Positions 11,595-61,787 of a stretch of DNA of 64,000 nucleotides are shown one piece after another. Numbering within the stretch: position 1 is the first letter of the stretch; each line of letters starts with the position of its first letter. The position numbers and the translations under genes are program-made. The stretch is from Methylovulum sp. Lineage in GTDB: Bacteria; Pseudomonadota; Gammaproteobacteria; Methylococcales; Methylomonadaceae. The notes below the pieces were generated by a model. That model was not told the DNA's origin and searched no databases. It saw nothing but the letters and a program-made list of their open reading frames with translations. Location of the stretch: NCBI RefSeq assembly GCF_028687615.1, contig NZ_JAQTZU010000014.1, forward strand, positions 1 through 64,000, given 5' to 3'.

Positions 11595-11897
11595 ATGCAA
11601 TTAACCGCACACGAAAAAGACAAACTCCTAATTTTCACCGCCGCCTTGCTGGCAGAACGGCGCAAAGCGCGTGGCCTGAAACTGAATTACCCCGAAACCG
11701 TGGCCTATATTACCGCCGCTATCATGGAAGGCGCACGCGACGGGCGCACCGTTGCCGAGCTGATGGAATATGGGCGCACCTTGTTAAGCCGCGACGATGT
11801 CATGGACGGCATCAGCGACATGTTGCCGGATGTGCAGGTGGAAGCGACGTTTCCAGACGGCACGAAGTTGGTGACGGTGCATAATCCGATTGAATAA
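11595..11897 (+). CDS. ureA: Urease gamma subunit
   Basis: 100 residues from ATG 11595 (AGAGGAAAATAACC upstream; an ATG at 11565 would add 10 non-family residues). It begins [20 protein letters not shown] and carries [22 protein letters not shown] and the C-terminal TVHNPIE, all typical of UreA. UreA with UreB and UreC forms the nickel enzyme that hydrolyses urea to ammonia and carbamate. In this genome ureB does not follow directly: a toxin-antitoxin pair lies between them. Confidence 0.95.
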
Positions 11898-12528: not shown

Positions 12529-12861
12529 ATGATCCCCGGAGAAATCATCCCCGCCACTGGCGAGATTGAACTGAACGCTGGTTGCGAAACCCTCACATTA
12601 ACCGTCGCCAACAGCGGCGACCGCCCTATTCAAGTCGGCTCGCATTATCATTTTTACGAATCCAATCCGGCTTTGCAATTTGACCGGGAAGCGGCGCGAG
12701 GCTACCGTTTGGACATTCCCGCAGGCACGGCGGTACGCTTTGAACCAGGCCAACAACGGCAAATCCAGCTTGTGCCGTTTGGCGGTTTGCGCCGTGTCTA
12801 TGGCTTCCGGCAAGCGGTGATGGGCTGCTTGGATTCAAAATCAGCGGAGGTTAAACCATGA
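12529..12861 (+). CDS. ureB: Urease beta subunit
   Basis: 110 residues, normal for a separate UreB. It starts [18 protein letters not shown] and includes [34 protein letters not shown] and [13 protein letters not shown], the core of the beta-subunit fold. A good AAGGAG sits 8-13 bases upstream. Its stop overlaps the ureC start (12858), so the two are translationally coupled. Confidence 0.95.
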
Positions 12862-14609
12862 GCAAAATCACGAGACAAGCCTACGCCGATATGTTCGGCC
12901 CGACCACAGGCGATAAAGTCCGTTTGGGCGATAGCGAATTGTTTTTACAAGTCGAAGCCGACCGCACGATTTACGGCGAAGAAGTCAAGTTCGGCGGCGG
13001 CAAAGTTATCCGCGACGGCATGGGGCAAAGCCAAGTCGATTCCAGAACCGCGATGGACATGGTGATTACCAACGCCTTGATTATCGACTACTGGGGCATC
13101 ATCAAGGCCGATGTCGGCGTGAAAAACGGCCGTATCGCCGCGATAGGCAAGGCGGGCAACCCCGACATCCAGTCCGGCGTGGGTATGATTATCGGCCCCG
13201 GCACAGAAATCATCGCGGGCGAGGGCAATATCCTCACGGCGGGCGGCATCGACGCGCACATCCATTTCATCTGCCCGCAGCAAATCGAAGAGGCGTTAAA
13301 CTCCGGCGTAACGACGATGATCGGCGGCGGTACGGGGCCAGCGACAGGCACCAACGCCACCACCTGCACCCCCGGCCCTTGGCACACACAACAAATGTTG
13401 CTGGCTTTGGACGGCTTCCCGATGAATTTTGGTTTGCTCGGCAAAGGCAACGCCAGCTTGCCGGGTGGTTTGGAAGAGCAAATCCGCGCTGGCGCGATGG
13501 GCTTAAAATTACATGAAGACTGGGGTACAACGCCCGCCGCGATTGACTGCTGCCTAAGCGTTGCCGAAAACTACGACGTTCAAGTGGCGATCCACACCGA
13601 CACCCTTAACGAATCCGGTTTTGTCGAAGACACCATCGCCGCCTTCCAAGGCCGTACCATCCACACTTACCACACCGAAGGCGCGGGCGGCGGTCATGCG
13701 CCGGACATCATCAAAGCTTGCGGCTTGCCGAACGTGCTGCCGTCGTCCACCAACCCGACGCGGCCTTACACCGTCAACACCGTGGACGAACATCTGGACA
13801 TGCTGATGGTCTGCCACCACCTCGACCCCAGCATCCCCGAAGATGTCGCCTTCGCCGAATCACGCATCCGCCGCGAAACCATCGCCGCCGAAGACATCCT
13901 GCACGACCTGGGCGCGTTCTCGATGATCTCGTCCGATTCGCAAGCGATGGGCCGCGTCGGCGAAGTCATCCTCCGCACCTGGCAAACCGCGCATAAAATG
14001 AAAATCCAGCGCGGACATCTATCACCCTCCTTTTCTACAGACCTGGCAGGTTTCCAAAACCTGCCAGGTCTTGAGTCAACGGTAGACAACGACAACTTCC
14101 GCATCAAACGCTACATCGCCAAATACACGATTAATCCCGCGATCAGCCACGGCATCGCCCATGAAGTCGGCTCGATAGAAGTCGGCAAACTCGCCGATTT
14201 GGTGTTGTGGAATCCGGCGTTTTTCGGCGTGAAGCCGAGTTTAATCTTAAAAGGTGGACTCATCGCCGCCGCCGCGATGGGCGATCCCAACGCGTCGATA
14301 CCCACCCCGCAACCCGTGCATTACCGCCCCATGTTCGGCGCGTTCGGTGTGACCGCCGCCGCCACGTCGATGATCTTCCTGCCGCAAGCTGCGGTAGAAG
14401 GCGGCGTGCCTGCCAATTTGGGTTTGCGTAAACGCATCGGCATCGTCAAAAACACCCGTAACATCGGCAAGAAAGATTTAATCCATAACGCCTATCAACC
14501 CGTCATGGAAGTTGACCCGCAAACCTATGCGGTACGGGCGGATGGGCAGTTGTTGACGTGTGAGCCTGTGGCGGTGTTGCCGTTTGCTCAGCGGTATTTT
14601 TTGTTTTGA
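12858..14609 (+). CDS. ureC: Urease alpha (catalytic) subunit with in-frame palindrome insert
   Basis: 583 residues against the usual 567-570. Nickel and active-site parts are intact: the first nickel-binding box GGIDAHIHF, the carbamylated lysine K217 in [33 protein letters not shown], and the flap region MVCHHLD. The extra length lies between IQRG (ending at residue 386) and DNDNF (starting at 410): 23 residues where Klebsiella UreC has about 7. That insert contains a 33-bp perfect palindrome (14039-14071) read as [11 protein letters not shown]. The position is just past the catalytic flap, on a loop that tolerates change, so activity may remain. The reading frame and the C-terminus (PFAQRYFLF) are intact. 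Confidence 0.95.
14039..14071. repeat. 33-bp palindromic core inserted inside ureC
   Basis: AGACCTGGCAGGTTT (14039-14053), a CCA loop, then the exact reverse complement (14057-14071). The same 33-bp core recurs in intergenic DNA at 21496-21528, 49896-49928 and, with changes in the middle, 61701-61733; looser copies lie at 21659-21709 and around 46318-46332. Because 33 is divisible by three, the ureC frame is kept. The outer inverted repeats that surround the intergenic copies are absent here. Confidence 0.9.
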
Positions 14610-14649
14610 GTTGTTGGATGTAGGATGGGCACGACTTCCTCGCTATCCT

Positions 14650-14731
14650 CCCGATGATCAATCGGGGATTCTGAGCTTTTGATTGTTCAGAATCAAGACA
14701 TAAGGATGGGCTGACGTAAGGAAGCCCATCA
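14650..14731. repeat. Cluster of small palindromes after ureC
   Basis: The 198-bp gap after ureC holds CCCGAT/ATCGGG (14650-14655, 14661-14666), then GATTCTGA/TCAGAATC (14667-14674, 14687-14694), then GATGGGCT/AGCCCATC (14706-14731). They may form stacked hairpins at the end of the urease transcript, but no T run follows. The first two abut exactly. Confidence 0.55.
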
Positions 14732-14807
14732 AAACTATCAATAAATGATATGCTTAGTTTGACTATGTATCTCATTGCGTCAATGCGCTACTCAACTAAA
14801 GTCAACA

Positions 14808-17790: not shown

Positions 17791-18327
17791 ATGCCGGATT
17801 ACCGTCGCTACCGCGTTCCGGGCGGGACTTATTTTTTCACGGTCAATCTGTTGGAACGGCACGGTAATGATCTTTTGGTGCGCCATATCGACATTTTACG
17901 CACGGTGGTGCGGGAGACGCGCACCCGTTGGCCATTTCACATTGATGCGTGGGTGGTTTTACCCGAACATTTGCATTGCGTATGGACATTGCCAATCGGC
18001 GATGCTGACAATGCCAACCGCTGGCGGGTCATCAAACAAGGCTTTTCCAAGGCTCTGCCGAACACGGAAAAACGCTCCGCCGTCCGTGTTGCAAGAGGCG
18101 AGCGCGGAATCTGGCAACGCCGCTTTTGGGAGCATGTCATCCGGGACGATGCGGATTATGCGGCGCATATCGATTATTGCCATATCAATCCGGTCAAACA
18201 TGGCTTGGTTAAACAGGTTTCGGATTGGCCTTACTCGACGTTTCACCGAGATGTCGAGAGGGGGCTTTATCCGCTGAATTGGGCAACGTCTCCTGATAAT
18301 AATTTTGACTACGGCGAGCGTGGTTGA
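17791..18327 (+). CDS. REP-associated tyrosine transposase (RAYT)
   Basis: 178 residues, single domain of the IS200/IS605 Y1 type. It starts PDYRRYRVPGGTYFFTVNL, has the metal-binding HLHCVWTLP (H-x-H, residues about 60), and IWQRRFWEHVIRDDADYAAHIDYCHINPVKHG, which holds the catalytic Tyr. These are the standard RAYT motifs. REPs with GTAG/CTAC edges flank it on both sides, so it is probably the source of the REP family scattered through the window. The gene looks intact. Confidence 0.93.
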   Translation: MPDYRRYRVPGGTYFFTVNLLERHGNDLLVRHIDILRTVVRETRTRWPFHIDAWVVLPEHLHCVWTLPIGDADNANRWRVIKQGFSKALPNTEKRSAVRVARGERGIWQRRFWEHVIRDDADYAAHIDYCHINPVKHGLVKQVSDWPYSTFHRDVERGLYPLNWATSPDNNFDYGERG

Positions 18328-18467: not shown

Positions 18468-18749
18468 ATGAAAGACAGTGACTGCTATGTGAAAATTGTT
18501 GAATGGTCTGAGGAAGATGGCTGTTTCGTGGGCTTTTGCCCTGGTGTTATCGGCGCTTGTTGTCACGCTGACAATGAAGTCGAAGTGTATGCCGAACTGT
18601 GCCAGATTGTGGATGAATGGCTTACTACTCTTAAAACTGACGGTAAGCCTCTACCTTTGCCTACCGTGGGTAAAGGTTTTGTCGACCAGATTTGCGCTCG
18701 TTCCCAAGCTGGAGCTTGGGAACGAGCGAAATTTCAAATTACCTATTGA
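18468..18749 (+). CDS. HicB-like antitoxin, orphan
   Basis: 93 residues. YVKIVEWSEEDGCFVGFCPG is the partial RNase H fold of HicB, followed by DNEVEVYAELCQIVDEWLTT. No hicA is found on either side. The last 20 or so residues (ICARSQAGAWERAKFQ) are encoded by a near-perfect palindrome (18698-18731, CGCTCGTTCCCAAGC / GCTTGGGAACGAGCG) that also occurs at 47.4 and 47.7 kb. The native C-terminus, which in HicB carries the DNA-binding domain, has therefore been lost or replaced. Confidence 0.75.
   Translation: MKDSDCYVKIVEWSEEDGCFVGFCPGVIGACCHADNEVEVYAELCQIVDEWLTTLKTDGKPLPLPTVGKGFVDQICARSQAGAWERAKFQITY
18698..18731. repeat. CGTTCCCAAGC palindrome inside the hicB 3' end
   Basis: CGCTCGTTCCCAAGC, short spacer TGGA, GCTTGGGAACGAGCG. 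The same repeat forms the outer arms at 47416-47446 and 47636-47674. Here it lies within the coding frame and supplies the C-terminal codons of the HicB-like protein. Confidence 0.8.
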
Positions 18750-21463: not shown

Positions 21464-21573
21464 AGGATTTGGCCATTAATAACTTCCCGATATTAAGACC
21501 TGACAGGTTTTTGAAACCTGTCAGGTCTAGGGTTTCAAGAATGGTTCAAGGAAGTTATTTTTAGCCAAATCCT
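21464..21573. repeat. 110-bp nested palindromic element, copy 1
   Basis: Outer arms 21464-21487 (AGGATTTGGCC to AACTTCC) and 21550-21573 (GGAAGTT to CCAAATCCT), 21 of 24 bases complementary. Inside is the 33-bp core: AGACCTGACAGGTTT (21496-21510), loop, exact complement (21514-21528). The same arms, core and spacing (8 bases from left arm to core) occur at 49865-49977, so this is one repeated element. It starts 11 bp after the corA-like gene. Confidence 0.88.
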
Positions 21574-49864: not shown

Positions 49865-49977
49865 AGGATTTGGTCAATATTAACTTCCTGATTTAAGACC
49901 TGGCAGGTTTCAAAAACCTGCTAGGTCTCTACGGTTTCGGCAATGACAGTTCGGGAAGTTATTTTTAACCAAATCCT
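49865..49977. repeat. 113-bp nested palindromic element, copy 2
   Basis: Outer arms 49865-49888 (AGGATTTGGTCAA to AACTTCC) and 49954-49977 (GGAAGTTATTTTTAACCAAA to TCCT), with the 33-bp core at 49896-49928 (AGACCTGGCAGGTTT, loop CAA, AAACCTGCTAGGTCT, one change). It matches copy 1 at 21464-21573 in arms, core and spacing. A decayed extra core (GGGTTTTGAAAACCTGTCC) follows at 49984-50012. Confidence 0.88.
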
Positions 49978-61663: not shown

Positions 61664-61787
61664 GGCTACCAACTTAAGGCGGGATAAAAACAACTGGGCC
61701 AGACCTTCCAGGTTTTAAAAACCTGGAAGGTCTAAATACCTACGAGTAATTGGGAAATTACCTGTGTCCCGCCTTAAGTTGGTAGCC
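61664..61787. repeat. 124-bp nested palindrome with 21-bp perfect outer arms
   Basis: Outer arms 61664-61684 and 61767-61787 are exactly complementary over 21 bp (GGCTACCAACTTAAGGCGG...). Inside is a 33-bp core 61701-61733 (AGACCTTCCAGGTTTT, 1-nt centre, complement), a variant of the core seen in ureC and elsewhere. It sits 7 bp after the rbfA stop, inside the operon, and would form a long hairpin in the transcript. Confidence 0.92.

Follow-up and report, generated by a model that had tools for sequence, protein, structure and literature searches.

The Urease Locus and Its Genome

The window, by which we mean the whole stretch of 64,000 nucleotides that was analysed, belongs to a genome of 3.49 Mb in 56 contigs (labelled G000). 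This genome carries a pmoA-type gene (match to the AMO family, 427 bits). An intact gene for the urease alpha subunit was found, with ureA and ureB upstream and a ureD also present. Among the 80 UreC loci retained of more than 593, the records nearest to the window's UreC came from Methylomicrobium and Methylocaldum; from this and the pmoA-type gene we infer that the host is a methanotroph of the order Methylococcales. The protein could be aligned end to end with urease chains of 567 amino acids.

11595..11897, + strand: ureA (PF00547)
12529..12861, + strand: ureB (PF00699)
12858..14609, + strand: ureC, urease alpha subunit, 583 aa, intact (PF00449, PF01979)
17791..18327, + strand: REP-associated tyrosine transposase (RAYT) gene (NF047646, 201.8 bits, cut-off 80)

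Several further elements lie in and around these genes. Between ureA and ureB there is a ParE-type toxin gene (PF05016; 11926-12497, + strand), preceded by an antitoxin-like ORF that was assigned by position and had no Pfam hit. The spacing between the ureA and ureB motifs was 871 nt in the window, 908 nt in G007, 531 nt in G001, and 325 nt in G019. Antisense to ureC (13010-13293, - strand), a match to Rfam 5_ureB_sRNA was obtained (132 bits), which may be due to conservation of the coding sequence and not to an RNA. Immediately 3' of the ureC stop codon (14619-14735), a REP-like repeat, GTAGGATGGGC ... GCCCATC, was recognized by eye, and the gene of a SMEK-domain protein (PF21941; 14775-15959, + strand) adjoins ureC downstream. 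The RAYT gene lies about 3.7 kb downstream of the ureC insert described below, proximity being the only tie seen between the two, and its ORF had no Pfam-A match at E ≤ 0.001. A second hairpin with 15-bp arms and a 4-nt loop (18695-18728) is located in frame near the C-terminus of the ORF at 18468-18749, where it encodes the peptide SQAGAWER; perhaps it is a further palindrome family in coding sequence.

A 33-bp Hairpin within ureC

The earlier note on this DNA had described a UreC about 16 residues longer than usual, and this was confirmed by the ORF and by alignment with relatives: the protein has 583 residues compared with 567 in most of them, and all 16 extra residues lie between QRG and DNDNF. 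They fall within an inter-helix loop that contains a short hairpin.

14016..14090, + strand: UreC inter-helix loop, 25 aa (8-9 aa in 87 of 107 loop rows)
14039..14071, + strand: 33-bp hairpin unit in ureC (arms 14039-14053 and 14057-14071, spacer 14054-14056), encoding 11 residues

The 15-nt arms are fully paired around a 3-nt spacer, CCA. Since 30 of the 33 positions match the reverse complement of the unit, the earlier wording "perfect 33-bp palindrome" holds for the arms and is slightly too strong for the whole. The 33 nt stand after the second base of a codon and add exactly 11 residues with the frame kept, as had been proposed. When they are removed, the frame stays open and a loop of 14 residues remains. 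Of the 16 extra residues, 11 thus come from the hairpin, and the other five belong to a loop that was longer than usual anyway; probably the loop of this lineage already had 14 residues before the unit came in. The flanks, TTCTAC and TGAGTC, contain no direct repeat, so there is no target duplication at ureC.

This unit was found in one ureC only, that of the window. It was absent from all other UreC loops read, both in the 107 rows of the order set and in 77 other named records, and thus no loop shared with unrelated ureases came to light. A search of plasmids with the 33-nt unit gave zero matches, and a codon pattern for QRGHL[SA]P, applied class-wide to 369 genomes, matched the window's own genome alone. 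The comparison with other species points to an insertion event in the window's ureC.

Dispersal of the Core Hairpin

The earlier note regarded the palindrome as mobile and repeated in the window. Three further copies do occur there; all have diverged from the ureC hairpin and none is identical to it.

21496..21528, + strand: core hairpin, centre of a family B MITE-like element of about 105 bp, TAA on each side
49896..49928 (about), + strand: core hairpin with one mismatch to the 31-nt pattern, centre of a family C element, TTA on each side
61701..61733, + strand: related core hairpin with two mismatches, in an element grouped by eye as family D

Across the genome the core proved to be dispersed: its 31-nt pattern has 78 copies at two or fewer mismatches, while the reversed-pattern control has 0. 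A narrower pattern gave 58 copies in this genome against 0 for the control, and it was present in 7 of 61 genomes, with 1-9 copies in each of the six others. These counts bear on the suspicion that the site is an ordinary variable loop holding a palindrome by chance. Loops of more than 10 residues do occur in 5 of 77 other UreCs (named records drawn from the 80 loci mentioned above), but 78 copies against 0, together with a perfect 15-bp stem, exclude chance for the sequence itself, and we give this reading practically no credence.

The flanks were inspected for 63 copies; 61 belong to the 78, and two, with 4 and 5 mismatches, are more diverged. Most are the centres of MITE-like inverted-repeat elements of about 105 bp, which were assigned to family A (21), family B (22), family C (5), or others (15, including some of family D, by eye). 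Families B and C form a pair as to their arms, which are unlike those of A and of D; the central hairpin is common to all. This genome has at least three such families with unlike arms and one central hairpin (L152, L163, L164, L188, and others), and neighbouring and nested copies occur. End triplets could be parsed in 35 of the 63 copies, among which 27 had matching TAA or TTA on both sides and 8 did not; for the longer elements, such triplets would fit a DDE-type transposase and not a Y1 enzyme.

The ureC copy is a bare core without the arms of the 105-bp elements. Judged by eye, it is also the only one of the 63 that lies deep within a long conserved ORF; in eight other ORFs spanning a core, the hairpin is at the edge or the frame looks antisense or extended. 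Moreover, the exact pattern was found in 25 IMG/VR viral stretches (several of them near-duplicates; G+C 0.41-0.65). Their flanks are mostly unrelated, so the core would appear to be a stand-alone unit of wide occurrence.

The UreC Loop among Relatives

UreC was present in 123 of 251 genomes of the order. Loops were compared in 107 rows, representing 101 of these 123 genomes, three further genomes, and three named records (two repeat genomes already in the set, and Thiocapsa lies outside the order). The other 22 genomes with UreC were judged by match length or were partial; L286 (G462, where ORF finding failed) and L244 (G590, a short loop) were left out, and L250 was dropped as a second copy of G020. 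The loop had 8-9 residues in 87 of the 107 rows and 16-38 residues in the remaining 20, and no further full-length match above 1704 nt was found among the 123 genomes. In two congeners, G004 and G005, the loop is long but lacks this hairpin (HLAPETPSGGIESETSN and HLAPETPCGIESETTN, respectively).

Of 369 genomes sampled across the class, 82 had UreC. Setting aside G000 and G029, which are of the window's own family, one of the 80 (G167) exceeded 1713 nt and three were partial, as judged by match span. Since few long UreCs occur outside the order in these samples, long loops are, as sampled, mainly a feature of this order.

In a tree of 105 UreCs, built with the loop excluded and without G618 and G604, which were too short, the state of the loop switches between long and short 14 times, and at least 7 switches are forced by starred branches (a quick method without bootstrap, which starred 33 of the 100 inner branches). 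With shuffled labels the average was 18.6 changes, and only 1 of 500 shuffles was as low as the observed 14. The long label is therefore partly clustered on the tree, so some of the long loops are not independent of one another. Each switch may be a gain or a loss, and the true number of insertions could be smaller if loop alleles have recombined. Even so, the sequences make it seem that one site in urease took in small repeats on several occasions.

A Different Palindrome Family in the Same Loop and in Other Genes

Many relatives hold a different palindrome family in the same loop, of which the earlier note made no mention. The intrastrand-triplex motif TM, earlier named PIT, is given in Table 1 of PMC4666352 as CCCTCTCCC, spacer, GGGAGAGGG, spacer, GGGTGAGGG, and the repeat of the relatives' ureC loops shares the layout of that table (C-rich arm, G-rich arm, mirrored G-rich arm). 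We found that 17 of the 20 long loops resemble this motif above shuffled loops (500 mononucleotide shuffles, p uncorrected), 14 of them at the floor of 0.002 and the other three at 0.004, 0.008, and 0.022. The exceptions were the loops of G004, G005, and the window. The encoded peptides are of the GRGAGGEG type, the GGEGLGERG type, and the reverse LPQGEG type, which means that the motif sits in different frames and orientations. Several of its carriers are finished or near-finished genomes, such as G536 and G457 (1 contig each), G456 and G434 (2 each), and G057 (3). We considered whether the window's insert might be a remnant of the TM/PIT copy that the sister genome G018 carries; 16 of 20 nt to the left of the insert agree by eye, but p was 0.51 and the idea was rejected. 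The UreC loop thus holds at least two palindrome families across the window and its relatives, the 33-bp hairpin and TM/PIT.

The motif is found in other genes, too, including hsdM, hsdS, and dnaE-like, metG-like, and purL-like genes. Twenty long-variant loci, one or two from each of 18 genomes including the window's own, were selected automatically; frames were taken from stop to stop. In 14 of them the motif lies within an open frame bearing Pfam domains; the hosts are ureC (2), type I restriction-modification genes, other DNA methylases, a DUF1156 protein, Cmr2, and a PurL-like protein, and in some, e.g., L199 and L202, the motif precedes the domain. Two of the remaining loci are at an N-terminal edge and four are outside a clear gene. 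Samples that depend less on this selection had a smaller share of copies within genes. For the short variant, 20 of the 36 exact copies listed for G547, G536, and G429 were taken, and about 4-5 of these 20 were in genes, among them a DNA polymerase III alpha gene and an HsdM-like gene. For the long variant in G430 (20 of its 25 copies, the ureC copy excluded), about 5-6 of 20 were in genes, whose products include MetRS, an AcrB-type transporter, and a U32 peptidase; the verdict on L330 follows from its likeness to L328. An intragenic position as a general rule for TM/PIT was rejected on these two samples. By eye, shared sites were seen in HsdM-like proteins ('YHAWRG'/'YHNWQT'; L210, L333), and a 'SYHAKF' methylase site is common to L199 and L202, the latter (C10:66229) being a TM/PIT copy inside an N6/N4 DNA methylase ORF of the window's genome.

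Instead of repeated insertion, palindromes might have entered ureC once or a few times, the alleles then spreading between species by short-tract recombination. In agreement with this, G018, G536, G429, and G547 each have the long TM/PIT variant at one or no mismatch a single time, namely in ureC, and among the computed pairs the genome nearest to G018 by Ks is G019 (0.268), whose loop is short. However, the repeat varies in frame and orientation between UreCs, and the short variant occurs elsewhere in the same genomes at two or fewer mismatches (G536, 30; G429, 38; G547, 31; G018, 6; reversed controls 0, 0, 2, and 0, respectively). Mismatches between G000 and G018 on either side of the loop are also ordinary, 7 and 7 per 120 nt compared with 4-17 in other bins. 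On this evidence we think spread by recombination unlikely as the explanation.

Probable Tolerance of Extra Loop Residues

Inserts in enzymes often inactivate them, and the one in ureC could be the sign of a dead or dying gene. Against this, the frame is intact, ureA, ureB, and a ureD are present, and Ka/Ks, with the loop excluded, was 0.029 for both the G000-G018 and the G000-G019 pair. A ratio of about 0.03 indicates that the enzyme is under strong purifying selection; a dead ureC was rejected on this ground, and a dying one is extremely improbable.

A first AlphaFold run (35 rows) was discarded because of its pLDDT of 44.9. The second model (95 rows; mean pLDDT 82, pTM 0.89) has a helix at 369-385, residues 392-406 at pLDDT below 50, and then a helix at 413-423, with the block 411-420 at 95. 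Strand 356-358, next to the ligand residue Asp360, leads into helix 369-385, which runs away from the active site. On the topology of a (beta/alpha)8 barrel, the modelled loop would therefore lie at the barrel end far from the nickel site.

The first residue of the loop differs between the two length classes. It was H, Y, or F in 20 of 20 long loops and in 0 of 87 short loops, and all seven independent pairs agree with this rule (sign test, p 0.016). Among the 77 other named records, H, Y, F, or W came first in 3 of the 5 loops that are long and in 2 of the 72 that are short. The agreement of 7 of 7 pairs on an H/Y/F start suggests accommodation by the protein. It could also be taken, together with the very stable RNA fold of the ureC hairpin (z = -5.84), as a sign that the hairpin is kept for a role in the mRNA or the protein (attenuation, pausing, or binding), beyond being tolerated. 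But the G018 ureC insert folds at z = -1.69 only, and the change of first residue is possibly a by-product of the insertion junction. Such a role is, in our judgment, decidedly improbable.

Proposed Origin of the Insert

We consider it likely, with good confidence, that a UreC loop tolerant of extra residues received a copy of a stand-alone 33-bp hairpin unit. A short hairpin unit dispersed in the genome would have been copied into the permissive loop between two helices, and open inserts of a length of 3n would pass purifying selection there and hence be kept, given the loop's predicted distance from the nickel site. A Y1/HUH-type transposase may have moved the unit in trans, as a single-stranded hairpin, or template switching may have copied it; both options are suggested by the lack of a target duplication at the ureC copy.

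A broader proposal is more tentative, and we hold it to be somewhat less probable than its opposite. In Methylococcales, tiny palindromes of unrelated families might insert recurrently into coding sequence, at preferred addresses within conserved proteins. The UreC loop would be one such address for at least two families, each accommodated by the protein through a change of the first loop residue to an aromatic one or histidine. If true, selfish DNA would have in this a standing means of lengthening enzyme loops.

Comparison with Known Systems

The palindromic elements of Rickettsia (RPEs) were reportedly described by Ogata and coworkers in 2000 and 2002. They are palindromic repeats of about 150 bp that lie in frame within conserved genes and are apparently tolerated by the proteins, according to passages of PMC10969869. 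The ureC hairpin also lies in frame in a protein-coding gene, and the resemblance pointed out in the earlier note is apt as regards this way of working. Its scope needs widening, since intragenic palindromes exist outside Rickettsia according to passages of PMC3733652, where RPE-4 and RPE-6 are themselves equated with short CGTC-type repeats. As to size, the 33 bp of the hairpin compare with about 150 bp in the one source and with the short repeats RPE-4 and RPE-6 in the other. The hairpin has no CGTC tag and resides in a gammaproteobacterium; moreover, 62 of the 63 core copies here are not deep within a gene. The ureC case may be said to work like an RPE or an intragenic REP, the likeness to RPEs being one of description.

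GTAG/CGTC REPs are short palindromes that occur inside ORFs such as uvrA and dnaE2, as reported in the same passages of PMC3733652. Like these dispersed high-copy palindromes of 20-40 bp, the hairpin is numerous (78 copies), but it ends in AGAC/GTCT and lacks a GTAG or CGTC tag. A parallel in that text is recB, which has different REPs at about one site in two Xanthomonas species (PMC3733652). That case concerns two species of one genus, whereas the recurrence in the UreC loop spans several genera. A term search did not find the word urease in the main text of PMC3733652.

The TM/PIT copies of E. coli are placed relative to neighbouring ORFs in passages of PMC4666352, whereas many copies here lie in frame within genes. 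The window's own hairpin fails as a TM (p = 0.51), unlike the 17 of 20 long loops that pass, and a term search of that paper showed no mention of urease. The core resembles MITEs in being centred in inverted-repeat elements of about 105 bp with matching TAA or TTA ends in 27 of 35; the ureC copy differs in having neither terminal arms nor a target duplication. Among the literature matches listed, which mostly lack coverage of subscription journals, there was no report of palindromic repeats in urease, and a combination of Methylococcales with REPs gave no match; one of the matches is reported to concern loss of the urease character in Klebsiella.

The loop offers a replicated natural experiment, in which related genomes, some of them finished, have or lack palindromes at one position of a well-studied enzyme. 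It opens tests of whether such insertions are neutral, of whether DNA structure or protein tolerance sets their sites, and of which enzyme moves small units. In-frame intragenic palindromes are already known in Rickettsia and beyond, and the addition made here is the apparently recurrent filling of one UreC loop.
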